Shown: piece after piece, positions 19,638 to 41,351 of the stretch
How positions within the stretch are numbered: position 1 is the first letter of the stretch
How the letters are laid out: every line of letters starts with the position of its first letter
From: Polyangium jinanense
GTDB lineage: Bacteria > Myxococcota > Polyangia > Polyangiales > Polyangiaceae
Assembly (NCBI RefSeq): GCF_028435365.1
Contig: NZ_JAGTJJ010000010.1
Span: forward strand, 124,001-188,000
Length of the DNA stretch: 64,000 nt
Direction: 5' to 3'
Made by a program: the position numbers and the translations under genes
Notes under the pieces: model-generated
Told to the model about the DNA's origin: nothing
The model's input: only the letters and a program-made list of their open reading frames with translations
Databases searched by the model: none

Positions 19638-19658
19638 TGGGGCCCCCAAGGATTCCGC

Positions 19659-19722
19659 GCATGGGAAGCATGCTACGCGCCGAGGAGCAGAAATCCTGAT
19701 TTATTCGTCCTGAGCGCACGAG
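19659..19722. repeat. Direct repeat, left copy (border of imported DNA)
   Basis: About 64 bp that recur with few mismatches at 21388-21452; the shared core is CTACGCGCCGAGGAG, and AGAAATCCTG then TTCGTCCTGAGCGC also match. This copy lies between the host hydrolase gene and the first imported gene, whose ATG is 3 bp after it. It is probably the end of a mobile element or a recombination site. It lacks the paired core sites of an integron attC. Confidence 0.75.
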
Positions 19723-19724
19723 CC

Positions 19725-19904
19725 ATGAGCAGTCGTTGGCGTCACCAGATCAGCGAATTGAAGCCGTCGCTGATAGGCAACTTCAAGCCCGAAGCGATGC
19801 AGGAAGAACTCAACAGGCAGGGCAACCTGGGCTGGGAACTGGTCCAGCTCATCGTTCCCGCGCCGATAGCGCCGGCGATGCTGGTGTTCAAGATAGCGCA
19901 ATGA
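19725..19904 (+). CDS. Small DUF4177-like protein
   Basis: 59-aa protein. The body NFKPEAMQEELNRQGNLGWE followed by LVQLIVP and a terminal MLVFKIAQ strand fits the DUF4177 family of small proteins (helix with ELN..G..GWELV, then beta strand ending in a Lys). The function of the family is unknown. Its stop overlaps the ATG pair of the CPBP protease gene (ATGATGG), so the two form a translationally coupled pair. Leu is mainly CTG, unlike the CTC habit of the host genes. Confidence 0.75.
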   Translation: MSSRWRHQISELKPSLIGNFKPEAMQEELNRQGNLGWELVQLIVPAPIAPAMLVFKIAQ

Positions 19905-20707
19905 TGGCCGCCACGACCACCCTGCCCGCTTCCACCGCCCCGTGGAAGCCCGACCTGAAGATCGCCGTGCTGCTCGGCGTGGTTTCGGCGCTGGCTGTGG
20001 CCGCGCTGGTCCCGTACCTGGTGCAGCTGATGCCGGACACGTTCGCGAAGCTGCCGGTGCCGATCCCGGTGTTGGTCGTCGCACAGTCGCTGCAGGCGCT
20101 GGTCCTGATGGGCCTGATGTCGCTGGCCGGCCTGCGCATGGGCCGTCGCGTCGGCCTCGGCGCGCCGCTGCTGCAACGCTGGATCAACCGCGAGCCGCTG
20201 GTCATCGCGCCGCGGCCGCTGCAGGCGATCCTGCTCGGCGTTGCCGCCGCGCTTGCGGTCGTCGCCCTGTCCGCGGTGATCGATCCGTTCCTGCCGCCGA
20301 TGCTGCACCCGCCGGCGAAATCCGGTGCCGGAGAATCGGCGCTGAACGGTTTCCTCGCTTCGTTCTATGGCGGCATCGCCGAGGAACTGCAACTGCGCCT
20401 GTTCCTGATGACGCTGATGGTGTGGCTGGTCGCGGTGCTGCGCAAGGCCATGCCGTCGCCGCGCGTCTACTGGATTGCGATAGCCATTGCCGCGCTGCTG
20501 TTCGGCGTGGGCCACCTGGCCGCCGCGCACCACGTCTGGGGGCTCGATGCGGTTGTCGTCGTACGCACCGTGCTGCTCAACTCCATCGCCGGACTGGCGT
20601 TCGGTTGGCTGTACTGGAAGCGCGGGCTGGAGATGGCGATCCTCGCCCACTTCAGCGCCGACATCGTGTTGCACGTACTGGCTCCACTGATAGCGAAAGG
20701 AGCCTGA
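19901..20707 (+). CDS. CPBP-family intramembrane metalloprotease (CAAX protease/bacteriocin-processing type)
   Basis: 268-aa membrane protein with about seven or eight hydrophobic segments. The three CPBP motifs are present: GGIAEELQLRLFL (the EExxxR glutamates), LFGVGHLAAAHH (second motif His), and LAHFSADIVLH (HxxxD-type third motif). Family members are Rce1-like proteases or bacteriocin self-immunity proteins. Leu codons are almost all CTG and the style is like gamma-proteobacteria (Xanthomonadales-like, inference), unlike neighbouring genes. The gene is bounded by repeat copies and transposase debris, so it was very likely acquired horizontally together with the DUF4177 gene. Confidence 0.85.
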   Translation: MMAATTTLPASTAPWKPDLKIAVLLGVVSALAVAALVPYLVQLMPDTFAKLPVPIPVLVVAQSLQALVLMGLMSLAGLRMGRRVGLGAPLLQRWINREPLVIAPRPLQAILLGVAAALAVVALSAVIDPFLPPMLHPPAKSGAGESALNGFLASFYGGIAEELQLRLFLMTLMVWLVAVLRKAMPSPRVYWIAIAIAALLFGVGHLAAAHHVWGLDAVVVVRTVLLNSIAGLAFGWLYWKRGLEMAILAHFSADIVLHVLAPLIAKGA

Positions 20708-20708
20708 C

Positions 20709-20825
20709 GTGGCGAAAGAAGATTTCCGGCTCGCGCCGCTGTCCCGCTCCGCCGCGGACTGCTCCACCCATGGGCCGAGATGGGACGCCGATGGTCCGTT
20801 TGTGGCTGCATTGCGTCGCGCCTGA
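20709..20825 (+). pseudogene. Truncated 5' end of a third imported gene
   Basis: A GTG one base after the CPBP stop opens a short frame reading MAKEDFRLAPLSRSAADCST, then 18 more residues and a stop. The first ~18 codons have the style of the imported pair. The remainder reads like unrelated host DNA, so this is probably the beginning of the next gene of the donor operon, cut off at the junction. A functional peptide is unlikely. Confidence 0.4.
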
Positions 20826-20882
20826 GAGTCTTCGCCGATGGTTGGCGAGCTCGAGGGCGCGGAAGCACGAAGGAAACATTTC

Positions 20883-20930
20883 GTCGAGCGCGGTCACGGC
20901 CGCGGGACCTCGGGGAAGATTTCGGCGGGG
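20883..20930. repeat. Dispersed degenerate repeat, copy 1
   Basis: A stretch beginning GTCGAGCGCGGTCACGGCC and including a GGGGAAGATTTCGGCGGGG end. It recurs at 33019-33063 and 33906-33948. Copies 1 and 3 are also followed by a TCGATGCCCGG element. On the minus strand copies 1 and 3 can be read as RRNL(P/L)RG(P/L)AAVT, so it may be a relic of a coding sequence or a small interspersed repeat. Confidence 0.5.
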
Positions 20931-21226
20931 AATTCCGGGCTCGCCGAGCACCTCGATGCCCGGGCCGCGGCATATCGATGAAGCGTACCTCGGCTCCGAG
21001 CCCGCGCCGAGGTGACTTCGAGGATGCAGCGAGGCGCTTGCCGGGTGGGGCCCGCCATGGCGGGGGTGGCGGCCGTCATCCTTCGGTGGATGAAATGAGC
21101 GATTGGGGGCGGCCGTTTCGCATGGCACGGCGCACGCAAATGCGGTGAGCGTGGGACTCGCCAGGCATTGAACATCCATCGCTGTTCGGGCAGATGGAGG
21201 CTCAGTCGGGTTTTGACGCGGGCAAG

Positions 21227-21306
21227 ATGCGCCGCAAGCCGTAGGCGTGGCTCTTGCGGCATGTGTTTGCGATTGACGTGACGGTGTGTCCCGAATGCTC
21301 GGGCAA
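21227..21306 (+). pseudogene. Transposase 3' remnant, copy 1
   Basis: Encodes the C-terminal signature ...AWLLRHVFAIDVTVCPECSGK, the WAxLLxRVFAIDV-CPxCGG zinc-ribbon ending seen in IS91-type (Y2) transposases. It is preceded by an in-frame TAG (in the codon before AWLL) and there is no upstream transposase body, so it is a dead fragment. An ~80-bp near-identical piece recurs at 26621-26698, where 2 bp are missing. Confidence 0.65.
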
Positions 21307-21387
21307 GACGCCCAAGACGGAGAGAACGGGGAGCTCCAGGGCAGGAAGCGGGGCTCCGAATGGTGTATAAGGATATCGTTGGCCGCC

Positions 21388-21452
21388 GCATGGCAAGAAT
21401 GCTACGCGCCGAGGAGGCAGAAATCCTGGTTTGTTCGTCCTGAGCGCTCCAG
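21388..21452. repeat. Direct repeat, right copy
   Basis: Second copy of the ~65-bp repeat at 19659-19722. It lies just after the transposase remnant and 82 bp before the imported MBL-fold gene. Each copy thus sits immediately 5' of an imported gene, suggesting it is an element terminus that was involved in both insertions. Confidence 0.72.
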
Positions 21453-21534
21453 GCATCGACCGCGCAGGTACAAACCAATGGACGCATTCGCATCGTCGAG
21501 TGGATGCTTGGAGCCCATTTACTGGAGATACATC

Positions 21535-22536
21535 ATGGGTATTCACAAGACTCTCTTGACTTTGATGGCGGCCGGCGTCATTGCCACGCTCGGGCTCGTC
21601 GGATGCGGCAGCTCACATGCCGCCGAACCCAAGGGTGCAGCGCGCGGACTGCTGAAGTCGCAAGCGCCCGCTTTCTACCGCATGCAACTGGGCGACTATG
21701 AGCTCACGGCGCTGTCCGACGGCACCGTTTCACTGCCTCTGGATCAGATGATGTCCAACATCACCCCCGCCGAGGTGCGTGGCTTGCTCACGGCGGGGTT
21801 CGAAGCCTATCCGACCGAAACATCGATCAATGCGCTCCTGGTCAATACGGGCAGCAAGCTGTTGCTCATCGATGCCGGCGCGGGAACGCTCTTCGGCACC
21901 AGCGGCGGCCGGCTGGTCGACAACCTCAAAGCCGCCGGCTACGACCCGGATGAAATCGATGCGGTTCTGCTGACGCACCTGCATGGGGACCACTCCGGCG
22001 GCCTGACGGTCGATGGCAAACGCGTCTTTCCCAACGCCGTCGTCTACGTGGACAAGGCCGACCGCGACTACCGCTTCGATCCTCAGGCCGAGGCGGCCGC
22101 TCCCGCCAACCAGAAAGACATGTTCCCGCAATCGCGGGCTGCCCTGATGCCGTACGAGGCTGCGGGAAAGGTGGCCCTGTTCCAGGGGGCCGGTGAGCTG
22201 TTTCCAGGCATCAAGACCATTCCCGCGCACGGCCACACACCCGGGCATACCCTTTTTCAAGTCGAGAGCAAGGGAGAAAAGCTCGTGTTCTTTGGCGACC
22301 TGGTGCATGCGGCCGCCGTGCAGCTGCCCCAACCGCAAGCGACGATCAACTTCGACGCAAACGAAAGCGCTGCCGCTGCGGACCGATGGGAGATGCTCAA
22401 GAAATTCGCAGACGACCGCACGCTGGTGGCCGCTGCGCACATCTCGTTTCCGGGCTTGGGTTATGTCCGATCCGACAAGGCAGGAGGCTTCCAGTGGATC
22501 CCTCGCTACTACAGTCTTCAGGGCCTGACCCGCTGA
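21535..22536 (+). CDS. Exported MBL-fold metallo-hydrolase (lipoprotein), imported
   Basis: 333-aa protein. TGGAG precedes ATG 21535 by 8-9 bp. The N-terminus has a signal with lipobox-like LVGCGSS. The metallo-beta-lactamase fold is well supported: LLTHLHGDHSGGL (HxHxDH zinc ligands), AHGHTPGHTLF, LVFFGDLVHAA (Asp ligand), and AAHISFPGLGY near the end (last His). It resembles broad-family MBL hydrolases common in beta-proteobacteria (inference); lactonase or phosphodiesterase activity is possible. CTG-rich Leu usage and the flanking repeat and transposase debris point to horizontal transfer. Confidence 0.88.
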   Translation: MGIHKTLLTLMAAGVIATLGLVGCGSSHAAEPKGAARGLLKSQAPAFYRMQLGDYELTALSDGTVSLPLDQMMSNITPAEVRGLLTAGFEAYPTETSINALLVNTGSKLLLIDAGAGTLFGTSGGRLVDNLKAAGYDPDEIDAVLLTHLHGDHSGGLTVDGKRVFPNAVVYVDKADRDYRFDPQAEAAAPANQKDMFPQSRAALMPYEAAGKVALFQGAGELFPGIKTIPAHGHTPGHTLFQVESKGEKLVFFGDLVHAAAVQLPQPQATINFDANESAAAADRWEMLKKFADDRTLVAAAHISFPGLGYVRSDKAGGFQWIPRYYSLQGLTR

Positions 22537-22618
22537 TTGGCTCTTTCAGCTGCGCTCCGCAAGACACGAGGGCCGACAAGCTTGCAGCGAACGAGCTGAA
22601 GGATTAAGCGAGGCGCCG

Positions 22619-23821
22619 ATGCAGGTGCCGCTCCGCCCGTCCAGAGTCGAAGCGCGCAGGTCGATCCTCGCGGCTTGCGCATGGCTGCTCCTCGCCGGCT
22701 GCTCGCTCGCATGCAATCGAGGCGCGACGGCGCCCGCCCCACCGCGCACGCTCGACGTCGCAGCCCCTCCGCTACCTGCGCGGACGGTGACCAGACCAAC
22801 CTGGACCGGTCCGATCACCGTCCCACAAGAAGCCACCTTTCGTGATCTCGTCGCGCGAGCCCGCGACGTTGCGCCGGCCAAGCGGGCCGGCGCCTGCCTC
22901 GTACGAGAGGACGAGACCCGCGCGCTCGTGCTCGAGACGCTCGACGTCAATGAGGGCGACCTCCCCGACCCTCCCGACGATCTCGATGCATTGCTCGACC
23001 GCAACGTCTACGTCGGTGGCGACCTCGCTTGGGGCACCCGACTCGTGCGTCCTTTCGTGACAGACGGCGGGAACTACCTCGATCTCGTTGCGCTCACGCC
23101 CGTCCCACGTCTCGTCTTGCGCGCGAACACAATGGTCCTGGTCGTCACGGACCGTTCGGTCTACCTCGGCATGCACGGTACCGTGGGGTTTCGGCATCTC
23201 GAGAAGGTGCCACCCAAGCTCGTGACCGCCGCTCTCGCGCAGGCGGCCGTGTGGATCGTCGCGGCCGAAGGCGCGGCTCCGCTCACGCGCGTTCAGGAGA
23301 CGCTCGACACGCTCCGCGAGGCGACAGGCAGCGTCGTCCTCGCGACGCCGCTTCCGACGGCAGCGCCGGGCCCGACCGCGTTGACGAGGCCTCACTGGCC
23401 CGTGCCGACCGAAGCGCCCGAGCGCTGCCGACCGGGTGTGTACGAGAGCACGGCGATCCAGCCCCAAGGGGACTACAGCGACGAGAAGCACGCAGGTGTC
23501 ATGAAGGCGTTCGAGCGCGCAGCGTCCTCGTGCGGGACGAAGCTTCCCGCAGGGGTCGGCGGGACGCTCGACGTCCGTGCTCTGATTCGCCCCGACGGGA
23601 ACGTGGAGGACGCATGCATCGACAGCGACGACGCTCTCGATGGCACGCTTCGATCGTGTCTCGTCGACGCCGTGCGGCACACCCGCTTCCCCCCACCCGA
23701 CAAGAGGTCCGGATGGGTGGCCTTTGGAACACGCCCCGCCGTGGCGGGGCCCCCGATCCGCGGCACCTGCGGCCCACACTCGGTCGCCCCCGCGCAATCG
23801 ACGTCTGCTCCCGCGAAGTGA
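22619..23821 (+). CDS. Lipoprotein with TonB-C/AgmX-like C-terminal domain
   Basis: 400-aa predicted lipoprotein (WLLLAGCSLACNRG; two Cys near the cleavage site). The middle is of unknown fold. Residues ~310-370 (CGTKLPAGVGGTLDVRALIRP, then a short acidic stretch and CLVDAVRHTRFPPP) match the TonB C-terminal-like module common in myxobacterial AgmX/PglI-type proteins. A role in envelope energy transduction or gliding is possible but unproven. Codon use is host-like, so the imported region ends before it. Nothing is seen in the ~80 bp upstream apart from a weak GAGG-type site. Confidence 0.72.
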   Translation: MQVPLRPSRVEARRSILAACAWLLLAGCSLACNRGATAPAPPRTLDVAAPPLPARTVTRPTWTGPITVPQEATFRDLVARARDVAPAKRAGACLVREDETRALVLETLDVNEGDLPDPPDDLDALLDRNVYVGGDLAWGTRLVRPFVTDGGNYLDLVALTPVPRLVLRANTMVLVVTDRSVYLGMHGTVGFRHLEKVPPKLVTAALAQAAVWIVAAEGAAPLTRVQETLDTLREATGSVVLATPLPTAAPGPTALTRPHWPVPTEAPERCRPGVYESTAIQPQGDYSDEKHAGVMKAFERAASSCGTKLPAGVGGTLDVRALIRPDGNVEDACIDSDDALDGTLRSCLVDAVRHTRFPPPDKRSGWVAFGTRPAVAGPPIRGTCGPHSVAPAQSTSAPAK

Positions 23822-24426
23822 GCGGCTCACGCGAGCTACGGGGGGAGTCGCGACGCTCGCGACGCGATGATCGTTGCCATCGGCGTCCTCCTTCGTCGAT
23901 GCTTTTGCGTTCAACCGAAGGCTTGCTCGCGACGCGGGAGGCAGGCCTCGAGCAGCTTCGGCGCCTCGCGCGTCAGGGCCGAGCGCGCGAGCAGCGCGGC
24001 CGACGTCGCGGCCGAGCTGTGGATGGGCTCTGGGACGAGGGGAGTACGGTGGACGATTTCGATCCAGCGCTCGTCGCTTGTTATGGTGTGGCAGCTCGTG
24101 CGTCCGCGCTTCGGATGTGTGGAGGGCGGTCGACCGCGCGACGGTGAGCGTGTTTCCGTGGTGATGGGCTTCGACATTCACGCGGACGTGGTGATCGATG
24201 GCCGCGATCGCCACCGTGTGGAGAGGCTGTGCCGGTATCGGCTAGGAGGTGGTCTGCGACAACTGCGGTGGGATCGCCTGGCTAGAGGTCCCCATCCATA
24301 TTGCCCCAGCGCTGCTACACGACCAAAACCCGACCTACGCCGATGCGGCGCCCGCCGACGTCTCAACCGTAGGGGGGCAACGTTCGTGCGCGATGACGCG
24401 GGCCTCGGTTCGCCCGGGACGCGTGA
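23822..24426. other. Intergenic region holding a direct repeat copy
   Basis: 605 bp without a convincing gene. It contains the left copy of a ~134-bp direct repeat (24014-24147). A minus-strand frame across 23911-24177 reads ...SDERWIEIVHRTPLVPEPIHSS..., also found in the other repeat copy, and may be a decayed gene. Confidence 0.55.
24014..24147. repeat. Direct repeat flanking the lipoprotein gene, left copy
   Basis: About 134 bp, highly similar to 25864-25998; the longest shared run covers CGATTTCGATCCAGCGCTCG and continues with TCGCTTGT and ATGGTGTGGCAGCTCGTGCG. The two copies have the same orientation and enclose the lipoprotein gene 24427-25617. Minus-strand reading gives the shared peptide SDERWIEIVHR. 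Confidence 0.8.
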
Positions 24427-25617
24427 TCAGGGCACGCAGGGATCGACCGGCGGCGGGTCCGGCGGGGCCACGGCGCCGAGCTCGACCGCCTTCATCGTGA
24501 ATCCGATTCCGATCGAGATCCCGTCGCACGTCTTCGTCGGGTCCTGCGTCCCGTCCTTCAGGATATCGGACGCCTGGCGGATCTGGTTGAGGATCGATTG
24601 CATCGTCGGCGAGTTCTGATCACAGAACGACGAATCGAACTTCGCTGCCGACTTCGCGATCTCCGCCACGAACGCCTCGGTATCGATGATGCCGCCGAGC
24701 TGGCCCTCGATGGCCCCGTCGTGGCCTGGAGAGAGCTTCATTTCGAGGCGCGCGTGGCGAATGGGGATCGCCGAGATGATCGCGCCGCTTCCATCACCGA
24801 GCACCAGGTCGAAGTTAGCCTCGGGGCCGGATCGGTACACGTCCTGATCGATCACGCTCTGCAGAAACACGTTCTTCGCCGAGGCCGGATTCATCGGGTC
24901 GAGCAGGAAATCCGGGCCGAGGGGCCAGGCGTCGGTCCCGTCCCATTGCGGCAGCGTCCCCAGGTTGTCGCCGCGATAGAGCTTGCTCGTCGCCGTGCAC
25001 GACGTCGACGCGCCCAGCCCCTCGATGGCCAGCATGTAGGTGAAGTTGCCGGCCTGCACGTCCTGGTTCACGACGCTCGGGTACGCGGTGTAGAGCCCCA
25101 GGATGATGGGAAAGATGTTCTTGCCGAAGGAGTTGTCTTTGCCATCGTACCCGTCCGGGTACGCTGCGGCGGGGACGCCGCCGGCCGCCGGCTGGCACAA
25201 GCCGACGGAGTTCTTCGTCGAGGTCACGCCATCGAGGTTGAATCCATAGTGCTTCCAGGCCGTGGCGGGGTTCGGCGTGCCGTCGGGATCCGTCTCGCCC
25301 AGCAGGAACTTGTCGATGGCCAGGACCGTCGTCGTCCCGTCATTACAGGCCGGCAAGCTTCCGCCGCCGCCTCCCTGCCCGCCGCCGCCTCCCTGTCCGC
25401 CGCTGCCTCCCTGACCGCTGCTGCCTACCTGACCGCTGCTATCGCCCCCGGTGCTGCCTTCACCGAGCTCTTCTTTGCTGCCTCCCTGCCGCCCGCTGCC
25501 ATCCAGGTCGTCACCTGCGCCGGCGCTCGTCACGATGGCATTGCAGCCGGCCGCGAATGCGAAGGCCGCCGCCGCCAGAACGACTCCACCCGCTCGAAAC
25601 AACAATGAATGCCTCAT
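24427..25617 (-). CDS. Lipoprotein with Gly-rich spacer, unknown function
   Basis: 396-aa lipoprotein. ATG 25617 is chosen for its strong purine-rich site (GGAGAGGAGAG) and signal peptide ending at AFAAGCNAI; the open frame extends upstream without support. A GGQGG/GGSGG spacer (about residues 60-85) precedes a ~300-residue domain with LAIDKFLLGETDPDGTP, IFPIILGLYTAYPSV, HARLEMKLSPGHDG and CDGISIGIGFTMKAV. Two or three Cys could form disulfides. I do not recognise the family, though such proteins are typical myxobacterial surface lipoproteins. It lies between direct repeats of ~134 bp. Confidence 0.8.
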   Translation of the reverse strand: MRHSLLFRAGGVVLAAAAFAFAAGCNAIVTSAGAGDDLDGSGRQGGSKEELGEGSTGGDSSGQVGSSGQGGSGGQGGGGGQGGGGGSLPACNDGTTTVLAIDKFLLGETDPDGTPNPATAWKHYGFNLDGVTSTKNSVGLCQPAAGGVPAAAYPDGYDGKDNSFGKNIFPIILGLYTAYPSVVNQDVQAGNFTYMLAIEGLGASTSCTATSKLYRGDNLGTLPQWDGTDAWPLGPDFLLDPMNPASAKNVFLQSVIDQDVYRSGPEANFDLVLGDGSGAIISAIPIRHARLEMKLSPGHDGAIEGQLGGIIDTEAFVAEIAKSAAKFDSSFCDQNSPTMQSILNQIRQASDILKDGTQDPTKTCDGISIGIGFTMKAVELGAVAPPDPPPVDPCVP

Positions 25618-26106
25618 GCCTCTCTCCTCTCCTTGGGAATTGCCTGGAGCAATTCGACACTCCAGGCCTGGAGCATGGCAACGTGCATGCCGCGGAAATT
25701 GCGGCGCTTTTTTCGGTCTGCGCCCTCGCGCCTTGGCAACCCTGGTTGGCGCCTGCCGGTTATCCTGCCAACGCGGCAAGAATCCGACGTTGCTGCGGCA
25801 CCGGCGCCCGGAGGGGTGATTTTCTGCGCACGGTTGCCGGCGCCGCGCTGAAGAAGCGCGGACGAACTGTGGAGGGGCTCTGGGACGACGGGAATACGGT
25901 GGACGATTTCGATCCAGCGCTCGTCGCTTGTCATGGTGTGGCAGCTCGTGCGTCCGCGCTTCGGATGGTGGAGAGCGATCGAACGCGCGACGGTGATGCT
26001 GCGCCATGCGTTGAAGAAGGCGTGGCGCGATGGGATACGATTCGTCGTTTTCGAGCTGCACGAGCTTCTGGCGAGAGTATGCGCGATCCGTGAACGAGGT
26101 TCGGGA
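25618..26106. other. Intergenic region between the lipoprotein gene and the 43-bp array
   Basis: No intact gene. The first part is the promoter-proximal side of the minus-strand lipoprotein gene. The right copy of the 134-bp repeat occupies 25864-25998. Just before the tandem array there is a short inverted repeat GAGGTT/AACCTC around 26097-26112. Confidence 0.55.
25864..25998. repeat. Direct repeat flanking the lipoprotein gene, right copy
   Basis: Same orientation and near-identical to 24014-24147, differing by scattered substitutions and a small indel. Together the copies bracket a single gene, as expected after a duplication or insertion of a composite unit. Confidence 0.8.
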
Positions 26107-26611
26107 ACCTCGATCACGGGCTCGCCGGCTTCGATATCGAAGGGGGAGGACTTCGATCACGGGCTCGCCGGCTTCGATGTCGAAGGGGGAGGACTTCGAT
26201 CACGGGCTCGCCGCCTTCGATGTCGAAGGGGGAGGACTTCGATCACGGGCTCGCCGCCTTCGATGTCGAAGGGGGAGGACTTCGATCACGGGCTCGCCGC
26301 CTTCGATGTCGAAGGGGGAGGACTTCGATCACGGGCTCGCCGCCTTCGATGTCGAAGGGGGAGGACTTCGATCACGGGCTCGCCGCCTTCGATGTCGAAG
26401 GGGGAGGACTTCGATCACGGGCTCGCCGCCTTCGATGTCGAAGGGGGAGGACTTCGATCACGGGCTCGCCGCCTTCGATGTCGAAGGGGGAGGACTTCGA
26501 TCACGGGCTCGCCGCCTTCGATGTCGAAGGGGGAGGACTTCGATCACGGGCTCGCCGCCTTCGATGTCGAAGGGGGAGGACTTCGATCACGGGCTCGCCG
26601 CCTTCGATATC
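26107..26611. repeat. Tandem array of a 43-bp palindrome-containing repeat
   Basis: Eleven consecutive units of exactly 43 bp (unit starts at 26139, 26182, 26225 ... 26569), preceded by one partial unit. Middle units look identical; the first two junctions carry CGGCTTCG instead of CGCCTTCG, and the outermost ones have GATATC in place of GATGTC. Each unit contains the inverted repeat CCTTCGA-TG-TCGAAGG and a second TTCGAT. The spacing, about four DNA turns, places all palindromes on one helix face. There are no unique spacers, so it is not CRISPR. Since 43 is not a multiple of 3, all three forward frames run through it, creating false ORFs. Confidence 0.95.
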
Positions 26612-26620
26612 AAAGACGCC

Positions 26621-26842
26621 ATGCGCTGCAAGCCGTGGGCGAGGCTCCTGCGGCATGTGTTTGCGATTGACGTGACGGTGTCCCGAATGCTCGGGCAAAA
26701 TGCGCTGGCGGGTGGTGGCGCTCACGCCTCACAGAACGTCGCCGCTGACCTGAACATCCAGCTGCTCTGGCTCCCCAAGCGCTGCTCCGAGCTGCCCACG
26801 AACGAGAGCGACAAGGCTGAGGCATATCCGGGCAAGGCTTAG
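26621..26842 (+). pseudogene. Transposase 3' remnant, copy 2
   Basis: Begins right after the 43-bp array. It encodes MRCKPWARLLRHVFAIDVTV; a 2-bp deletion relative to copy 1 (21227-21306) then shifts the frame away from CPECSGK. In the restored frame the text continues KMRWRVVALTP, consistent with the C-terminal end of an IS91-type transposase. The downstream frame to 26842 is open but not recognisable. It is a dead fragment. Confidence 0.6.
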
Positions 26843-27103
26843 CACGGGAGGCTACTTCAGCGCATGAGCGCACTTGAGCGTATTGGACAAGCAAGGTGGA
26901 GCAAGGTGGAGCGCTCGGCGGGGGCTGCTCTCGGCCCCATCATCCCATTGACGCGAGCCGCGCCGCCATTACGAGCCTAGATGGACGCCAGATTGTCAGC
27001 ACGGAGAGATGGGAATGGATCCCTCCAGGCTGAGCTCGTCAGCCTCGTAAACTCCCGAAGGGGAAACCGACGAGCCTTGGCCAGAAAGAACGGGAAAATC
27101 ATC
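26843..27103. other. Leader region of the RiPP locus
   Basis: 261 bp between transposase debris and the precursor gene. No gene is seen. A TTGACG at 26948-26953 followed 16 bp later by TACGAG is a weak promoter candidate for the RiPP operon; the match is poor and it is offered only as a place to look. Confidence 0.35.
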
Positions 27104-27319
27104 ATGAGCAAGAAAGTCATCATGAGCAATGGCTATCTGGAAAGCGACGAGCCTGTGTTCGAGATCGAGGTGCTCGGCGAGCACTCTTCCGGACAACAAG
27201 GCATCTACACCGCGGCACCTCCTCTTCCTTGTTGCTCCAGCAGCAGTAACAGCGCCAGAAGCTGTAACAGCACCTCCACCCCCGGCGGGAGCAGGCCGCG
27301 CATGGGAAGCGGATCCTAG
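27104..27319 (+). CDS. Candidate LAP/TOMM precursor peptide
   Basis: 71-aa peptide with the layout of an azol(in)e RiPP precursor. The leader (residues 1 to about 40) includes YLESDEPVFEIEVLGEH, an acidic and hydrophobic segment of the kind bound by RiPP recognition elements. From residue 43 the core is CCSSSSNSARSCNSTSTPGG plus a short tail; 16 of the last 29 residues are Cys, Ser or Thr, the residues cyclised by YcaO enzymes. It lies 117 bp upstream of the modification genes on the same strand. ATG 27104 was chosen; an 18-bp in-frame duplication provides a second ATG at 27122. The ribosome-binding site is weak (GGGAAAA). Overlapping frames exist, so coding is inferred from composition and context. 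Confidence 0.75.
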   Translation: MSKKVIMSNGYLESDEPVFEIEVLGEHSSGQQGIYTAAPPLPCCSSSSNSARSCNSTSTPGGSRPRMGSGS

Positions 27320-27436
27320 CCGAGCAAGCATGTTCATGGGCATGGCCGCCGGTCACGGTGACTCGCTGCGGTCGTCCGTCCCTTCCTCCAGGCTCTCCCG
27401 GTCGCCGGTGGTTCCCCGGCTCCTCGCGGTGTGTTC

Positions 27437-28540
27437 ATGAAGCCGAAGATCAAGCAACATTTGACGGTGTTTCCGATCTCTGACGAGGAGTGGGGCATCC
27501 GAGGAGGAGCTGAAGAGCTCGTTCGTATACGAGCGAAGGGGGACGACGCCGCACGGGTGCTGAGCGCAATGCTTCCTTATCTTGATGGGACCCACGAGAC
27601 GTCCGAGATCTTCATGGAGCTCGACCGAAAAGGACTATCTGCTGCGACCGCCCGAGCCCTGCTCGAGCGGCTCGAGCGGACCGCGATCCTCGAGCATGCG
27701 CTGGACGCCCCGCTCGACGAGGACGAGCAGGACGATCCGGCCATCCGGCGTCAGCGGAGCTTCTTTTCGCGCTTCGCGGACGATGGGGGCCGCGCTTTGC
27801 AGAAAAGACTGCAGAGCTCGCGGGTTGGTCTCGTTTGCGACGCAGGGCTCGGCCCGGTCGTCCTCCGGCAGCTCACGCAATCGGGCATCGAAGATGTCCT
27901 CGTCTTTCCCGTGCGTCCCGAGCTCGCTCGATGCGAGCTCAGCGTAGCCAGCACGCGGCTATCGTCCGTCGCGCGGGTCGCGGTTCACAGTCTCGATCGT
28001 CGACGCATCTGGCCCGATGGCCTCGCGGCGCCCTTGCCGGACCTGTTCATCGTGGCCTTGGCGGCGGACGATCCGGAGCTGCTGGAATCGATGGAAGAAT
28101 TCTCCTTCGAGAGGAACGTTCCTTGGTTGCTCCTCCAGGTCGATAGCTCGCGCGAGGCGAGCATCGGGCCGTTGTTCGTCCCGCGCGAGTCGGCTTGCTA
28201 CTCCTGCATGGAAGGCCGGGTGCTCAGCAATCTACGGTTCCCCGGCGAGTACCTCGCTTTTCGCGAGCACCTCCGACGCCAGCAGCATGCGAGCGCCGAG
28301 ATCGGCGGCCTCGCCGCATTCTATGAGCTCACCGCCGGCATCGCCGTCATGGAAGTGGTAAAATTCATCACCGGGTACAGCGCCCCCCAGCTCGTCGGCA
28401 GACTATTGACCGTCGACACGACCACGTGGTCCAGCGAATTTCATGATGTGTTACGGCTACCGCAGTGCCGCTGCCGCCTCGGTCAGGAGACGTTTTTCCC
28501 CTGGAAGGAGCCGTGTTATGTCTCACGCCAAGGCAGGTAA
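27437..28540 (+). CDS. TOMM cyclodehydratase partner, E1-like leader-peptide-binding protein
   Basis: 367-aa protein of the E1/ThiF-like cyclodehydratase-partner type. Residues ~5-85 (HLTVFPISDEEWGIRGG, then a winged-helix-like stretch) are a likely RiPP recognition element that binds the leader and presents it to YcaO. The middle has a degenerate Rossmann segment (VGLVCDAGLGPVVLRQLTQSG) without an adenylation loop. Two zinc-type Cys pairs close the fold, CYSCMEGR and CRC. ATG 27437 is preferred over GTG 27431. Its end overlaps the YcaO start by 23 bp, indicating tight coupling. Confidence 0.85.
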   Translation: MKPKIKQHLTVFPISDEEWGIRGGAEELVRIRAKGDDAARVLSAMLPYLDGTHETSEIFMELDRKGLSAATARALLERLERTAILEHALDAPLDEDEQDDPAIRRQRSFFSRFADDGGRALQKRLQSSRVGLVCDAGLGPVVLRQLTQSGIEDVLVFPVRPELARCELSVASTRLSSVARVAVHSLDRRRIWPDGLAAPLPDLFIVALAADDPELLESMEEFSFERNVPWLLLQVDSSREASIGPLFVPRESACYSCMEGRVLSNLRFPGEYLAFREHLRRQQHASAEIGGLAAFYELTAGIAVMEVVKFITGYSAPQLVGRLLTVDTTTWSSEFHDVLRLPQCRCRLGQETFFPWKEPCYVSRQGR

Positions 28541-29909
28541 TCGCAATCGACTGGAGCTACGGGACGTGCCTTGGAGCTCTCCGATGGAGACGGTGCAGAA
28601 AGGTGGCCGCCTCGTGTCCCCGCGTACAGGCATCCTCCAGATGATCTGCGCCGGCGTCCATCAACCCGGTGACCCGCACTGCGAATCTTTCGCAGCCGTC
28701 GCGAGTGACGCTGCCCGGTTCTCGACGGCGACCAACGCCAGCAAGACCAGCAAGAGCGGTGGAGCGGGGCTGACGATGGACGCGGCGCTGGCGGCCACCA
28801 TCGGGGAAGCCGTCGAGCGCTACTGCATGAACTTCTACGATAAGCGGGACCTGGTCCTCGATTGCGCCCGGAACCTCAACGACCTCGCGGTGAATCCGAC
28901 CCTCGTCAGCTTGTTGTCGCGTGAACAGATCGAGAGGAACCCGACGGACTGGGCCTTCTTTGATGAGGACAGCGTCATCCGATGGGCCTGGGGTTACTCG
29001 CTCACCCAGGACCGCTGGCGCCTTGTCCCGGCCTGCCAGGTATACCTGAACTACACATTCGACGCGGACGAAGCCGCCATCATGTCCAATGCGTCGAGCG
29101 GCCTGGCGGCCGGAAACACGCTCGAGGAGGCGATACTCTCAGGGGTGTACGAGGTGATCGAGCGCGATGCCTTCACGAACGCCTGGCTGCATCGATACGT
29201 CGCCCGGCGCGTTCGCGCCAACAGCCCCAGGCTCGAGGAGTTCCTGGCCACGTGCTGCCTCGCCGAGCACCCGTCGATCAACATTTCGCTATTCGATATC
29301 ACCCTCGATATCCCGGTGTTCTGCTCCTTCGCCGTCATCCAGCGCCCCGCGGAGTTCGGCCCCGTGCTGCTGGTCGGAACAGCGGCTCGCCTGGACCCCG
29401 AACGAGCGATCGAGAAGTCGCTGCTCGAGGCCTGCCAGGAGATGGCCTACGTCCGCTATCTCCGAAACGAGATGCAAGATTGGTATCCCAGCGAGGACTT
29501 CACCAATGTCACTACATTCGACGAGCACTTTATGGTATACAACCACCGTCCCGAGCTGATCGAGGAGGCCTTCGCCTTCTGCAGGGAAGTCCCCGGGGTC
29601 GTCTGCTCTTCCGATCTGCCCAGCCGCTCCACCGGGCGTGTGCTTGGGGATGTGAACAGGGCTGTCAAATTCCTCGACGAGCGAGGGTACGAGGTCATCG
29701 TCGTGGATATCACCACGCCGGATATTCAGGACATCGGTTTGCATGTCGTGAGGGTGCTGGTCCCCGGACTCGTGCCGTTGCACGGAGATCACAATCTTCC
29801 CTTCCTGGGCGTTCCACGGCTCGACGCACTCCGAGGCTCGCTGGCCGGAGGGCAGCCTGGGCGAACCGGCAGCCATGGATACAACCCTTACCCTCACCCT
29901 TTCCCCTGA
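28518..29909 (+). CDS. YcaO-domain cyclodehydratase (azoline-forming)
   Basis: 463 aa. AAGGAG lies 7 bp before ATG 28518. YcaO ATP-binding residues are visible in TIGEAVERYCMNF, YEVIERDAF and LLEACQEMAYVR, with GLAAGNTLEEAI between them. The C-terminus ends NPYPHPFP, the proline-rich tail characteristic of azoline-forming YcaO proteins and needed for catalysis in characterised members. Known reaction: ATP-dependent cyclodehydration of Cys, Ser or Thr side chains of a precursor to thiazoline or (methyl)oxazoline. It works with the E1-like partner encoded just upstream and presumably on the 71-aa peptide. Ribosomal-protein-modifying YcaO is excluded by the neighbours. Confidence 0.93.
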   Translation: MSHAKAGNRNRLELRDVPWSSPMETVQKGGRLVSPRTGILQMICAGVHQPGDPHCESFAAVASDAARFSTATNASKTSKSGGAGLTMDAALAATIGEAVERYCMNFYDKRDLVLDCARNLNDLAVNPTLVSLLSREQIERNPTDWAFFDEDSVIRWAWGYSLTQDRWRLVPACQVYLNYTFDADEAAIMSNASSGLAAGNTLEEAILSGVYEVIERDAFTNAWLHRYVARRVRANSPRLEEFLATCCLAEHPSINISLFDITLDIPVFCSFAVIQRPAEFGPVLLVGTAARLDPERAIEKSLLEACQEMAYVRYLRNEMQDWYPSEDFTNVTTFDEHFMVYNHRPELIEEAFAFCREVPGVVCSSDLPSRSTGRVLGDVNRAVKFLDERGYEVIVVDITTPDIQDIGLHVVRVLVPGLVPLHGDHNLPFLGVPRLDALRGSLAGGQPGRTGSHGYNPYPHPFP

Positions 29910-29920
29910 GGAGTGGCGTG

Positions 29921-30733
29921 ATGAAGGATTTGAAGTTGCTCGCCAAGCTCGGCCAGAACGCGGCCTTCGGACCTCTGGCCTGCCGCACCTCCGGCTACCA
30001 GCTCTTTCATGAGAGCAGCAAGTACAACGCCGCCAGCAGCAGCAGGATGGCCATGCTCCAGATCGCCTCGATCCGTCGCGACGAGGAAGTCATGGAGATG
30101 CTCAGCAAGCCATGCAAGCTCTATAGCCTGGCCGAGGCGCGCCCGCTGCAGATCCCGGAGGCCCTCAACACGCTGGAGCAATCCATTCATGATCGCCGTT
30201 CCGTCCGCCGTTACACCGGCGGGGCGATCTCTTTGGGCGATCTGTCGCGACTGCTCTTCTTCATGTACGGACAGACGCAGAAGGACGGCTGCTTCCGGGC
30301 CGTCGCCTCGGGTGGAGCCTTGTACCCGCTGGAGGTCTACGTGTTCGCGTTCCGGGTCGAAGCGCTGGAGCCAGGGCTCTATCACTATGCGCCGCAGCGC
30401 CACGGCCTCGACTTCATCCGTCGAGGCGACTACAGAGAGCAGCTGGAGGCCTGCATAACCCTGGAGGGCGTCGAGCTGTCGTCGTCCTGCATGCTCGTCG
30501 TGATCTCTGGCGTATTCATTCGATCGACGCTCAAGTACGGTGACCGCGGCTATCGCATGGTGCTGATGGAGTGCGGCGAAGCCGGCCAGAACCTGAGCCT
30601 GATGGCGACATCCATGGGCCTAGGCTCCGTGTGGCTCGGTGGATTCATGGATGATCGTCTCAATCGGCTCCTGGAGATCGACGGCGTCGAGGAATCTGCG
30701 CTCGCCCCGATGGTCGTCGGCAGGCGCGCGTGA
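29921..30733 (+). CDS. SagB-type FMN-dependent azoline dehydrogenase
   Basis: 270 aa, nitroreductase-like fold. GAGGAG overlaps the YcaO stop, with ATG 29921 8-9 bp on. Family marks are HDRRSVRRYTGGAISLGDLS (FMN phosphate contacts), RAVASGGALYPLEVYVF, and CGEAGQNLSLMATSMGLGSVWLGGF. In LAP pathways this enzyme oxidises thiazolines and oxazolines to aromatic azoles. It is the last gene of the locus; a convergent lipoprotein gene ends 66 bp away. No transporter, leader peptidase or immunity gene follows. Confidence 0.92.
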   Translation: MKDLKLLAKLGQNAAFGPLACRTSGYQLFHESSKYNAASSSRMAMLQIASIRRDEEVMEMLSKPCKLYSLAEARPLQIPEALNTLEQSIHDRRSVRRYTGGAISLGDLSRLLFFMYGQTQKDGCFRAVASGGALYPLEVYVFAFRVEALEPGLYHYAPQRHGLDFIRRGDYREQLEACITLEGVELSSSCMLVVISGVFIRSTLKYGDRGYRMVLMECGEAGQNLSLMATSMGLGSVWLGGFMDDRLNRLLEIDGVEESALAPMVVGRRA

Positions 30734-30799
30734 CGCTGTCGTCGGAGGAGAGGACCGTGCTTGCGTCTTGGGATCTCCCATGGCTCGAGGGGATGCCCG

Positions 30800-32659
30800 C
30801 TATTTTCTCGCGCAGAGCTCGGCCCAGTTTGCCTGGTGAAGCGCGACCGGCCTCGGAACCGCTGTCCTCGTGGCGCGCGCCGGCGGAACGAGCACCTTGC
30901 CGGTCGGATCGAGGACGGCCACGTACACCTCATTCACGCAGTTGCTCGATGGAGCGCATTGGCGCTGATCGTCATCGCGGGAATCGGTCCAGGCGGCGAG
31001 GATCCGGCTCTTGTCCGCTGTCGCCCAGAGTCCGTGCGTCCCGCCGGCCGCTTGGCTCAGGAGGACCTGCGGCGCCTGCGCTCCAGGTTCCGACGCAAAG
31101 ACCAATTTTCGATCCTCGCTCCAAACACGCGTGAGCCGGCTGTTGATCCACGCCGCGGCGCCGAAGCGCGCCGTATGCTGGTCCCAAGGACTGGCCGGCG
31201 CGTCGGAGAGCACGCGGAAGTCGGCGGCCGAAAGCTCGAGCGCGTGCAGACCCATGGTATCCCGCGCGATTGCATGATTCACGCCGTTATCGCCAACCAC
31301 GATGCCCACCCGGTCGCCAAGCGTCCCGAGCGCGACGAGCGTCCCCGTGTCCGCGAGCTTGACCGTGCCGGCGCTCCCCAAAGGCGCACCATCGGCAGCA
31401 AGGCGCTGGAGCCGAAGCTCGGGACCACCTTGGTGCCAGGCCAGCAAATAATCGCCGCCGACGGGCTCGAATAACATCTCTCCGCCCGCGAGACCGGCGC
31501 TCGACGAAATCGATACCGCGCCCCCCGTGGGCTCGCCATTCAGCCCGAGCGGCCTGAACCTCAATACCTCGTCCCCGCCCACACGGCCTTGCCAAACGAT
31601 ACCCGCGCGGGCTCCGGCGCGCGCCAGCGCGAGAAAAACCGGCCGCCCGGGCTCCGTCGAGATCGTCTTGATCGACCCCGGCCTCGGCGCTCCCTGGCTC
31701 GTGTCCACGTACACCAGACGAACGTCGCGGTCCTCCTTGCCACGGGCCGTCGTGAAGGCCACGAGCAGCCCGCCCGGAACGTCCAGCGTCTCGACGAGCC
31801 CCAGCCAGTCGTTATCGCTCCGCGCGAGCTCGACGGGCGCCCCGACCGGCTCGCCCCGAGGCCCGAGCTGCTGGGCGAACACGGCCCCGATGGAGCTCGT
31901 GTCCCCAGGCCGCACGTGCGTCTCGGTCCGTCGATAGACGAGGAGGTAGCCGTTCTCGCGTGCGACGAGCCGAGAGGGCGTGTTCTCCGCATACACGTGC
32001 TGCCTGGCCCGCTCGACCTGCGCGTTGCGGCAGGCCCAGAGCGCCTCATTGCCGCCGCGAATGGTGAGCTCGACAGGGTTCGAGACGAGCGCGAGCGGCG
32101 TGGCCCCGGATAGGCCGTCCGCCCGGTAGCGCACGCGTAGCGACACCACGCCGGGCCGGGCGTGATCGAGGACGCGGAACGAAGGCGCCCAGGCGTGCGC
32201 GTCGTCGATCTCGAGCTTGCTACGCGCGCCGAGGACGCGTCGATCCTTCGGCTCGATCGGATTCGTGAGACCACACCGCGCGTTGGGCGTGAAGCCCAGC
32301 GCGTGCGGCAGCGGCTGGCCTTTGGCATCCGCGAAGACGAGCTCATAGGCGGGCTGTCGCATGCCGCCCCAGGAGCCGTCGAGGGGCGGGACGACGACAG
32401 CCGCGTCACCCGAGGCATTGCGGAACGCGAGGTGAAAGTGGAGCTCATCGCCGACGGCGAGGTCGGTGTCGTCCACCGTCAGGACGAGCGAGACGCCCCG
32501 CTGCACCTCTTGCGCGGCAACATTTGCAGGGGAAGCGGAGGTGGACTGGGCGAGCGCGTGGTCCGTGCCGCAAGAGCCGAGCGCGAGCAGGGAGAGGAGC
32601 ACGAAGCGCCGGTGAGCGACGGGGCTTTTGCGTTGCACGAGCGTATGATGCGAGACCAC
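30800..32659 (-). CDS. Large exported lipoprotein, unknown function
   Basis: 619 aa if GTG 32659 is used (AAGG a few bases upstream); GTG 32638 is an alternative, and the open frame reaches 32737. The signal is RRFVLLSLLALGSCGTD. The N-terminal ~200 residues look like an immunoglobulin-like/BsuPI-type domain (LVLTVDDTDLAVGDELHFHLAFRN...). The remainder carries repeated WD/beta-propeller-like strands (GYLLVYRR, GLLVAFTTARGKEDRDVRLVYVD, DYLLAWHQGG, RILAAWTDSRDDD), typical of secreted propellers. A binding role at the cell surface is likely; enzymatic activity is not evident. Confidence 0.72.
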   Translation of the reverse strand: MVSHHTLVQRKSPVAHRRFVLLSLLALGSCGTDHALAQSTSASPANVAAQEVQRGVSLVLTVDDTDLAVGDELHFHLAFRNASGDAAVVVPPLDGSWGGMRQPAYELVFADAKGQPLPHALGFTPNARCGLTNPIEPKDRRVLGARSKLEIDDAHAWAPSFRVLDHARPGVVSLRVRYRADGLSGATPLALVSNPVELTIRGGNEALWACRNAQVERARQHVYAENTPSRLVARENGYLLVYRRTETHVRPGDTSSIGAVFAQQLGPRGEPVGAPVELARSDNDWLGLVETLDVPGGLLVAFTTARGKEDRDVRLVYVDTSQGAPRPGSIKTISTEPGRPVFLALARAGARAGIVWQGRVGGDEVLRFRPLGLNGEPTGGAVSISSSAGLAGGEMLFEPVGGDYLLAWHQGGPELRLQRLAADGAPLGSAGTVKLADTGTLVALGTLGDRVGIVVGDNGVNHAIARDTMGLHALELSAADFRVLSDAPASPWDQHTARFGAAAWINSRLTRVWSEDRKLVFASEPGAQAPQVLLSQAAGGTHGLWATADKSRILAAWTDSRDDDQRQCAPSSNCVNEVYVAVLDPTGKVLVPPARATRTAVPRPVALHQANWAELCARK

Positions 32660-33324
32660 GTGCGCCTTGGCAACGGCCGCATGCGGTCCGGATGGCGATA
32701 TCCGCCTTCGAGGCGCTGGCCACCGCGGTCCAAGCAATCGAAAGCACGTGAAGATTTCGCCGCGAGGGGGGCGGCGGAAATGCCGCCCTTCCGCTCCCCG
32801 AGGGCGCCCCCACGTCCCACCGTCGAGCGGCGTCGAGCACGTGGTCCGGCGTGCGATTGTAGCGGAAATTTAAGGGCGCAGCGCGCCATGGCATCGAGTG
32901 ACGGCCCGGAGATCGTGGCCCCGACAGACGGCCGGCGAGAACGGCCCCTTCACGGGGAAGCGCATTTCACGGGTAAACGTGTGCCCTGCACCCGTCCGGG
33001 AGAGGCAAGCTCGCCGATGTCGAGCGCGGTCAAGGGCTCGAAATCCCTGGGAAGATTGCCGCGCCGTGAAACCAGAGGTGGACGGAATGCCACGCGTGGC
33101 GCCGGGGGAGGTAGACTTTCGTGGAGGAGCCTCAGTCCATGCGGTAGCAGCAGACGCAGGGCTTCGTTTTTCGGGTCGACGCCGTCCGCCCTCGTCACCC
33201 TCGACGCGGCCCCGGCACTTCATTGCCCTCGACCTCGCCGGGATCGCCGGCCTCGACCTCGACCCCCGCGGCAGGTTGCCCGGTCTTTCTCGTTGATCGC
33301 GAATGTCACATCGCGCGGCGTTTT
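32660..33324. other. Intergenic region with repeat relic
   Basis: 665 bp with no convincing gene. It includes copy 2 of the dispersed repeat (33019-33063). Several 80-130-codon frames are open on both strands but lack signals, ribosome-binding sites or recognisable motifs. Confidence 0.55.
33019..33063. repeat. Dispersed degenerate repeat, copy 2
   Basis: Starts with GTCGAGCGCGGTCA like copy 1, then diverges, with GGGAAGATT conserved near its end. The most decayed of the three copies; the minus strand reads RGNLPRDFEPLTALD. Confidence 0.4.
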
Positions 33325-33696
33325 CTACTCCCAAGATCCCTCTTGCGGATCGAACTTGGCGAAAGTTTCCGATCCCAACGCCGTTTCCGAGGCCCATTGC
33401 GAAATCTCGAAGATGGCATCGCTCCCTGCCGGGCACGAAAGAAAGAGAGCATAGGGTGTAAAGAGCGCCTCGGCACCGAAGTCGGGCATCGAATACCGAC
33501 GGCCTCGTTTGGTGTTCTTCTGTTCTTCCCACCCGAAGGCGAGCCGCTCGGTCAGCGCTTCAAGCTCCGCTTCCGTGAAGCGATCGAGGACGTGCTCACC
33601 GAGCGCCTCGCGTTCGAGCGCTTCAAGCAGCTGACGTGTCTTCGCTTTGAACTTCGTCTGGACCCGGCGCGGGAGGATGTAAACGGCGTAGCTCAT
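33325..33696 (-). CDS. Small hypothetical protein
   Basis: 123-aa protein beginning MSYAVYILPRRVQTKFKAKT, followed by a helical, acidic segment (LLEALEREALGEHVLDRFTEAELEALTERLAFGW) and a C-terminal FTPYALFLSCPAGSDAIFEISQWA stretch. The amphipathic, low-complexity-free composition argues that it is a real gene. There is no signal peptide or known motif. The neighbouring gene on the same strand, 34026-34643, is also uncharacterised. Confidence 0.6.
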   Translation of the reverse strand: MSYAVYILPRRVQTKFKAKTRQLLEALEREALGEHVLDRFTEAELEALTERLAFGWEEQKNTKRGRRYSMPDFGAEALFTPYALFLSCPAGSDAIFEISQWASETALGSETFAKFDPQEGSWE

Positions 33697-34025
33697 GAGG
33701 GTGCATCCTAAAGGAAAATCGTCTTTCGGTTTGACCGGTGGCGGGCCTCTGTTCTTCGGGACACGTAAGAGATGGACTACACAAAGTTCGTCGCGCGCGC
33801 AACAAAACCTAGTCTCAGGCCGATGGCGCTTGGGCGAGCTCCGCGAGCCGGACCTTCATTTTGCCGCTCCGCCCCCCGGCATCCGGGAGCGGCGGAAACT
33901 GGCTCACGAGCACGGTCACGGCGGCGAGACCTCGGAGGAGATTTCGCCGCTCACCGCGCCGCTTCGATGCCCGGATGCCCGAACCCAGCAAGCACACGAG
34001 CAGGGACCGGCGTTCTCCGGAGGTT
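33697..34025. other. Intergenic region with repeat relic
   Basis: 329 bp between two minus-strand hypothetical genes. It contains copy 3 of the dispersed repeat (33906-33948). No promoter, RNA or gene is evident otherwise. Confidence 0.55.
33906..33948. repeat. Dispersed degenerate repeat, copy 3
   Basis: Closely similar to copy 1 (20883-20930): GAGCACGGTCACGGC, then GAGACCTCGGAGGAGATTTCG. Like copy 1 it is followed within ~30 bp by TCGATGCCCGG. It is found in a host-like region away from the imported genes, so the element is likely a native interspersed repeat. Confidence 0.5.
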
Positions 34026-34643
34026 TCAATCCATCTTTCGGAGCCTTCTCGGCTCCACATTCGGAAGCACGCGAAACCGGCCATTCCCAGCAAAATCTAC
34101 CACGCGGGGCCCGCCCGAAGCCTGCTGTAGGTGCATCAAACCGCTCGGCTGCCCTTCCGTGCTGACGACAAATCCGAGCGTTGACCAACGCTTTGTCTCG
34201 TCCTCGCTGGTATACGGCATCACGACAAGCTCGCAGCCAGCGGCAAAGGTCGTGCATAGCCGGCGGATCACGGCCAGGTCCACATTCCGCTTCCGATAGG
34301 CGTCATCGATCGACATCTCTGCGATGTACAACAGATCGCTACCGCGCCCCTGCGCATATTCGTCTTTGAACCAGTCGTCGTCAAAGTAAACCGAATAAAT
34401 GGTCTCGAATTCCGCGTCCTCCGCATCGAGCGCGTCCAGGAGTGACACGTTCAGGCGCGAGGCTTCCTCAACGTGAATGAGGGCGATCAACACGCTACCA
34501 ATGTCCTCCTCGTCGTCGTCCTCGCATTCGTCCTTATTGTGGCCGCTCGATTCGTAGACGACGCAATGTAGCCACGTAATGAGGCCCCTGTCTTCGTTCG
34601 GCTCGGCGACAGGCAGATTTCCTACGAGACGTAATCCGATCAT
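34026..34643 (-). CDS. Hypothetical protein, possibly GNAT-like
   Basis: 205 aa, acidic in the first third (DECEDDDEEDIGSVLIALIHVEEASR). The second half has LLYIAEMSIDDAYRKRNVDLAVIRRL, then ELVVMPY, and ends with GPRVVDFAGNGRFRVLPNVEP. The beta-(Y/R-K-R-N-x)-helix arrangement resembles the acetyl-CoA-binding turn of GNAT acetyltransferases, but the Q/RxxGxG/A motif is missing, so the enzyme class is doubtful. No signal peptide. Confidence 0.6.
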   Translation of the reverse strand: MIGLRLVGNLPVAEPNEDRGLITWLHCVVYESSGHNKDECEDDDEEDIGSVLIALIHVEEASRLNVSLLDALDAEDAEFETIYSVYFDDDWFKDEYAQGRGSDLLYIAEMSIDDAYRKRNVDLAVIRRLCTTFAAGCELVVMPYTSEDETKRWSTLGFVVSTEGQPSGLMHLQQASGGPRVVDFAGNGRFRVLPNVEPRRLRKMD

Positions 34644-34958
34644 GGCGCGTTTCTATCCGAAAACGCGCCCTCGTCAACCCGAGAAAAACCACGACGCATC
34701 ACCCGCTCGACGCATGCACGCTCGCGTCGAGCGGCGCGTCACGTGCTCGCCCGCGTCCAGATTCGCGCCGAGCTGGCGCCCGTGTCATGATGTGACCGCC
34801 CGTACGCCGAGGAGCACCCGCCGAGGCACCTCGCGCGAGGGCGTTCCGGGGTTCGTTCATCCGTTCCGGAATCGTCCCGAACCCCCTCGGCGTCTGCATC
34901 GCCCTGATACGATGCGGAACGCTCGTCCGCGGGCCTCGTGCTTGCAAGCGCGGCTTCC
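34644..34958. other. Intergenic region
   Basis: 315 bp between the divergent hypothetical gene and the sugar dehydrogenase gene. Open frames here are composition artefacts. No clear promoter, repeat or RNA gene was seen. Confidence 0.5.

Positions 34959-39032: not shown

Positions 39033-41351
<2,319 letters not shown>

Follow-up and report, generated by a model that had tools for sequence, protein, structure and literature searches.

A 64-kb stretch of Polyangium jinanense DNA (contig NZ_JAGTJJ010000010.1, positions 124,001 to 188,000; the window, whose own numbering is used throughout) was found to carry a compact cassette of four genes on one strand, which forms a genuine and probably functional linear azol(in)e-containing peptide (LAP) or thiazole/oxazole-modified microcin (TOMM) cassette with a likely local precursor. 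The cassette encodes a short peptide and three enzymes, an E1-like C protein, a YcaO-type D protein and a B protein dependent on flavin mononucleotide (FMN), and the gene positions given in the preliminary description were reproduced in the open reading frame (ORF) and position checks (Table 1). The enzyme genes had been described as overlapping or 11 bp apart, and this is indeed the case: the C and D genes overlap by 23 nt and a gap of 11 nt separates D from B, while 117 nt lie between the precursor frame and the C gene. The start of the C protein is supported by a 65%-identical relative (P0006) which opens with the same residues. The start chosen for the YcaO gene has strong Shine-Dalgarno (SD) pairing (-10.1 kcal/mol) and is supported by the equal N-terminal length of the relatives P0013-P0015 in the alignment; an alternative existing gene call begins later and gives 441 aa. 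For the SagB gene the SD pairing was -9.2. Scanning the window with Rfam and for tRNA genes gave no hits.

Table 1. Coordinates of the cassette genes and of the variable region around them (window numbering).
Feature	Position	Strand	Remarks
Candidate LAP precursor peptide	27104-27319	+	71 aa; open frame
C protein, RRE-like N-terminal domain and E1-like domain	27437-28540	+	367 aa, ATG 27437
D protein, SagD-type YcaO cyclodehydratase	28518-29909	+	463 aa, ATG 28518
B protein, SagB-type FMN-dependent azoline dehydrogenase	29921-30733	+	270 aa, ATG 29921
Stretch with the whole cassette, absent from genome G001	23832-30766		blastn of the window against G001 contig L035
Variable accessory block	19645-34889		flank comparison across the genus genomes

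The enzyme families were called with the curated cut-offs of NCBIfam, and a Pfam scan was run alongside. The C protein matched TIGR03882 (54.4 bits against a cut-off of 36.9; E 1.6e-14), the YcaO protein TIGR03604 (274.2 against 219.25; E 1.6e-81) and the dehydrogenase TIGR03605 (136 against 78.4; E 9.2e-40), matches which are far beyond chance; in Pfam the three were assigned to ThiF (PF00899), YcaO (PF02624, 3e-74) and Nitroreductase, respectively. An E1-like protein with two Cys pairs and an N-terminus resembling the recognition element (RRE) of ribosomally synthesized peptide enzymes had been proposed, and each of these features was recovered. The pairs ACYSC and PQCRC are aligned with CWHC and CPTC of TruD, and profile matches to solved structures comprised TruD, PaaA, MccB and LynD. 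In the AlphaFold model of the C protein (mean pLDDT, the model's confidence score, 74.5), strands at residues 9-15, 18-23 and 26-32 are followed by helices at 36-48, 55-64 and 69-81, giving a predicted RRE-like domain at about residues 1-87. The leader-binding RRE fold is given as three strands followed by three helices in PMC12710340, and the modelled N-terminus agrees with this order. Foldseek matched the model to MccB (1.2e-17), LynD (2.9e-16), TruD (6.8e-16) and PaaA (1.9e-13); a family missing from a structural match list was not counted as evidence.

In the case of the YcaO protein, for which ATP-site motifs had been reported earlier, LynD, TruD and MusD were among the sequence matches to solved structures, and EAVERY and AAGNTLEEAI...ERD are kept in comparison to LynD (1.8e-29). 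The protein ends in PHPFP, a terminus found in 117 of 120 compared members of the family. The SagB-type assignment of the dehydrogenase likewise holds, since the family cut-off is passed and homology to McbC was found (7.5e-13), with SGGALYP kept and the Lys-Tyr step aligned; McbC is also a structure match of this protein, ranked behind a putative nitroreductase. Such a B protein is an optional component of LAP/TOMM loci. Family, fold and structure matches support assigning the three enzymes to the C, D and B types of a LAP/TOMM locus that forms azoles, which was the original proposal.

The short Cys/Ser/Thr-rich peptide gene was confirmed as an ORF. Its last 31 residues hold 3 Cys, 11 Ser and 2 Thr (16 of 31) together with 4 Gly, so that 20 of 31 (65%) are Gly, Cys, Ser or Thr. 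With limits set by eye, the leader covers about residues 1-40, with FEIEV at 19-23, and the Cys/Ser/Thr-rich region covers 41-71, with the pattern CCSSSS-N-S-A-R-SC-N-STST; the longest ring-forming run is CCSSSS, six residues with a Pro before it. In Cox et al. (PMC4603692), precursors are sought as short ORFs of <150 aa with a core of 45-65% Gly/Cys/Ser/Thr, and the 71-aa peptide falls within these limits, its core standing at the upper edge of the range. Two 18-nt duplications, at 27094-27129 (over the start codon) and 27237-27271 (in the core), both preserve the frame, as is expected of coding DNA, although two instances prove little. When the precursor and the C protein were modelled as a single chain, FEIEV was the sole ordered part of the precursor and linker, being predicted as a strand, with pLDDT values of about 58 at residues 11-30 versus 25-32 elsewhere in residues 1-110. 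LynD binds its leader as a strand added to the RRE sheet. The 71-aa ORF is the best substrate candidate seen, and we infer that it is likely translated and used as the substrate.

A number of observations weigh against this assignment. The SD pairing of the precursor is weak (-4.3), and its synonymous-codon score under the window gene model is -0.094 per codon, below background; this value tops those of eight other frames or segments (-0.104 to -0.484), the C gene reaching 0.016. Under a codon model built on the LAP enzymes the corresponding score is merely 0.053, compared with -0.114 to 0.027 for the eight other frames or segments and 0.059 for the C gene, which itself belongs to the training set. 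When full codon scores are taken from the latter model, two overlapping readings, a 115-codon minus-strand frame (0.085) and the frame shifted by two (0.032), exceed the precursor (0.018), as does a short non-overlapping upstream reading (0.024). The protein search for homologs of the peptide returned itself alone, with one candidate overall, and no NCBIfam match was found for it. The single-chain model is of low confidence, the partner strand of FEIEV is not seen in it, and it has no scrambled control peptide. Moreover, no sigma-70 promoter-like site was detected in 26600-31000 (0.8 expected by chance), and the cassette holds no transporter, protease or immunity gene. The composition of the peptide is also not unique: among the mechanical ORFs of >=40 aa in the window, 10 of 491, the precursor frame included, contain a 31-aa stretch with >=16 Cys/Ser/Thr and >=3 Cys, so that the chance for the peptide alone is non-negligible.

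The missing homolog, the weak codon and SD evidence and the frequency of comparable stretches would all suit a situation in which the LAP enzymes work on a precursor from another part of the genome and the 71-aa frame is a chance ORF. PMC4603692 adds that only 46% of TOMM clusters had a precursor identified within 10 kb. However, the frame directly precedes the enzyme genes, the composition of its core fits the range of Cox et al. (PMC4603692), FEIEV becomes ordered when modelled together with the RRE protein and the 18-nt repeats keep the frame, and a distant precursor is judged to be unlikely on these grounds. The precursor could also begin at the upstream ATG 26981 and comprise 112 aa, the frame being open from this position; but the added segment scores -0.317 per codon versus -0.094 for the 71-aa part and the SD pairing at the upstream ATG is -2.2 versus -4.3, which makes the longer form rather improbable. 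A decaying cassette that is not expressed would suit the absence of a promoter-like match, but has only slim odds, as each of the three enzymes is of full length and keeps its conserved motifs.

Thioamide formation, macroamidine formation and protein modification are further YcaO reactions, and the YcaO-TfuA type is said to be the subject of a published study. YcaO proteins being known for such reactions, the set might yield thioamides or macroamidines, or modify a protein instead of a peptide, and the D protein does match TIGR03266 as well. This match reaches just 103.3 bits where 365 would be needed, whereas the SagD cut-off is passed; an azoline-dehydrogenase-type protein is present and a TfuA-like gene is not among the four. 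Such non-azole chemistry is considered to be highly improbable.

A four-gene LAP/TOMM operon, in which the precursor is acted on by the C, D and B proteins, is given a probability of roughly 0.85. In this operon the leader strand around FEIEV would bind the N-terminal RRE of the C protein, and the latter would present the C-terminal part of the precursor, rich in Cys, Ser and Thr, to the YcaO D protein. Using ATP, the D protein may cyclodehydrate some of Cys43, Cys44, Ser45-48, Ser50, Ser53, Cys54 and Ser56-Thr59 to azolines, which the FMN-dependent B protein would oxidise to thiazoles and oxazoles. Proteins encoded elsewhere would remove the leader and provide for export. This mechanism is of the established C-D-B type, and its class and chemistry are well known.

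In comparison to known systems, the cassette resembles the microcin B17-type LAP/TOMM loci, as described in PMC4603692, in its three enzyme types, separate cyclodehydratase halves and short precursor; it differs in that the precursor has no detectable relative, and in the distance of the C protein from TruD and LynD and of the B protein from McbC. Compact three-enzyme loci with B, C and D proteins only have already been described as mobilisin loci, which according to PMC4603692 have a fused cyclodehydratase and a Cys/Ser/Thr-poor core, whereas the present cassette has separate C and D proteins and a core rich in these residues. The plantazolicin type is also a LAP, possibly from a related host, being reported there for the genus Sorangium; its precursor is given as about 45 aa with a core mostly starting with Arg, and most of its loci have a methyltransferase (PMC4603692). 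Here the precursor has 71 aa with no Arg ahead of the ring-forming run, and neither a methyltransferase nor lanthipeptide-like dehydratases (Pfam) were found in the three enzymes or ten flanking ORFs, which sets the cassette apart from plantazolicin and, for the dehydratases, from thiopeptides and goadsporin. The C protein scores 49.3 bits on the SagC family TIGR03603 against a cut-off of 187.65, which does not support a streptolysin-like cytolysin. A gene of the Rce1-like CAAX protease family (PF02517), a family also found in cytolysin LAP loci according to PMC4603692, is present at 19736-20707. It was rejected as a streptolysin-type partner because it is 6.4 kb off and a 94%-identical stretch occurs elsewhere in G006, a genome in which the cassette was not detected; relatives show no linkage of the two. 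Other genomes of the genus encode fused C-D proteins (open frames of 751-874 aa) having E1-like and YcaO parts as here; these differ in being fused, in showing 26-33% identity and in standing at other genomic places.

Searches for relatives returned six for the C protein and 395 for the D protein among 7,995 scored candidates. The D-family comparisons were made on the best 120 of the 395, the first being the window's own protein (P0003) and the others P0013-P0131, which are D proteins of 45-61% identity, nearly all with the PHPFP end seen in the cassette; we know of no member of this group with a known product. Nine relatives in this set carry a taxonomic name. Seven of them belong to the Acidobacteriota, three under the phylum name itself and four through their lineage (one Vicinamibacterales, two Thermoanaerobaculia, one Holophagales), and the other two are Spartinivicinus poritis (Gammaproteobacteria) and an Acidimicrobiaceae metagenome-assembled genome. 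A FastTree tree was built from the 120 D proteins together with 16 YcaO parts of genomes of the same order, and in its unrooted form the two groups are split with a support of 1.0; an apparent non-monophyly of the 16 was dismissed as a rooting artefact in view of this split. P0003 forms a four-member clade with P0013, P0014 and P0015 (0.985), which P0017 of S. poritis joins next (0.869). Two of the six C relatives lie on contigs as long as those of D relatives (P0007/P0015, 32039, presumably a single contig; P0008/P0042, 4235); that of P0013 measures 13,765 bases. Three D pairs (P0095/P0100, P0099/P0119 and P0076/P0094) have equal longest contigs, so that some relatives may carry two D genes at one place.

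At the surrounding taxonomic ranks, overlapping sets of 59, 377, 6 and 183 genomes were searched, and none of the matches listed to the C or D queries exceeded 36% identity. The 377 same-phylum genomes gave no match with the queries A1 (E <= 1e-15) and P0003 (E <= 1e-30), an empty result which proves nothing unless a known positive is recovered, at most five (A1) and four (P0003) candidates having been scored per genome among the matches listed. With P0013 as query, 12 of 183 genomes matched at the order level, the best at 36% identity. Plasmid searches gave only distant matches among those listed (26-31% identity; 24-34% for the C protein). The sole match of a genome contig scan, a YcaO match in contig L017, was judged from the ORF list to be due to chance. 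A viral contig scan with the query A2 returned four distant YcaO matches (25-28% identity). That of viral contig L042 was excluded as a relative, since a TfuA-like gene adjoins it and marks a different system; at L042:7452-10008 the YcaO gene is followed by a TfuA-like protein (NF033432, 171.9 bits, cut-off 235.2), perhaps a thioamidation pair on phage-like DNA. Judged by sequence, the cassette sits in a rare clade.

The genomic setting was studied against six genomes of the genus (G001-G006). The nearest of them, G001, has 20% of sampled 31-letter words in common with the window, and the genomes of the nearest relatives measure 10.8-13.4 Mb, a size in keeping with a myxobacterium of the Polyangiales type. 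All six have the parts of the window before about 19.6 kb and after about 34.89 kb, and the flanks of the intervening block are 36 bp apart in G003, G004 and G006 (measured from 19595 and 34899), 810 bp in G005 (from 19645 and 34889) and about 19 kb in G002. Against G001 contig L035, blastn matches stop at 23831 (L035 5207) and restart at 30767 (L035 6619); G001 has 21250-23831 and 30767-32776, and between them 1.4 kb of other sequence in which a tandem array and, on the minus strand, an ORF of 291 aa are found. Cassette DNA was not found in the six genomes among the matches listed, and protein searches detected only distant relatives of its proteins there. The gene at 24413-25827 occurs elsewhere in G005, G006 and G002, and that at 30767-32776 elsewhere in G005 and G006 and, by coordinates, in G003 and G004. 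Since neighbouring genes are thus found singly at other places in the relatives, the block is variable and the cassette is one accessory module among several in it. It was probably acquired horizontally, this strain having presumably received it within the variable chromosomal block.

Short, widely occurring repeats lie between the accessory genes of the block. A tandem array with a 43-bp unit (11.8 copies, 99% matches) occupies 26110-26615; among the matches listed, five of the six genomes have similar DNA elsewhere, and the array of G001 at the matching site is a different one. Arrays of this kind, lying between accessory genes, may be a mark or a cause of the shuffling of these genes. Elsewhere in the window, the product of 21286-22536 has a metallo-beta-lactamase fold, its nearest model being an AidB-type quorum-quenching lactonase (177.7 bits, below the cut-off of 360). 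The gene at 39033-41351 encodes a 772-aa Ser/Thr kinase that matches TIGR03903, the TOMM kinase/cyclase model, in part and far under its cut-off (117.8 against 705.75), and is probably an ordinary PknB-type kinase.

A literature search by title and abstract start found no publication on this locus among the papers listed. What is new here is the absence of the cassette from the six genus genomes examined, together with the lack of any YcaO match of more than 36% identity in the wider searches. The product is probably new, because sequenced relatives of the precursor, the C protein and the D subclade are few or lacking, and its role is most likely that of a narrow-spectrum antibacterial or signalling peptide. 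It may tentatively be proposed, at somewhat less than even odds, that the cassette represents an undescribed LAP group, with a YcaO family that occurs in Acidobacteriota as well as in a marine gammaproteobacterium and the present bacterium with its large genome, a gene set reduced here to the precursor and the C, D and B proteins, horizontal spread and a core unlike the cytolysin and plantazolicin cores compared. If so, the differing core would point to a possibly new target. To our knowledge, the YcaO family of at least 395 proteins has no characterised member; this small and self-contained cassette, which is easy to co-express, would supply one.

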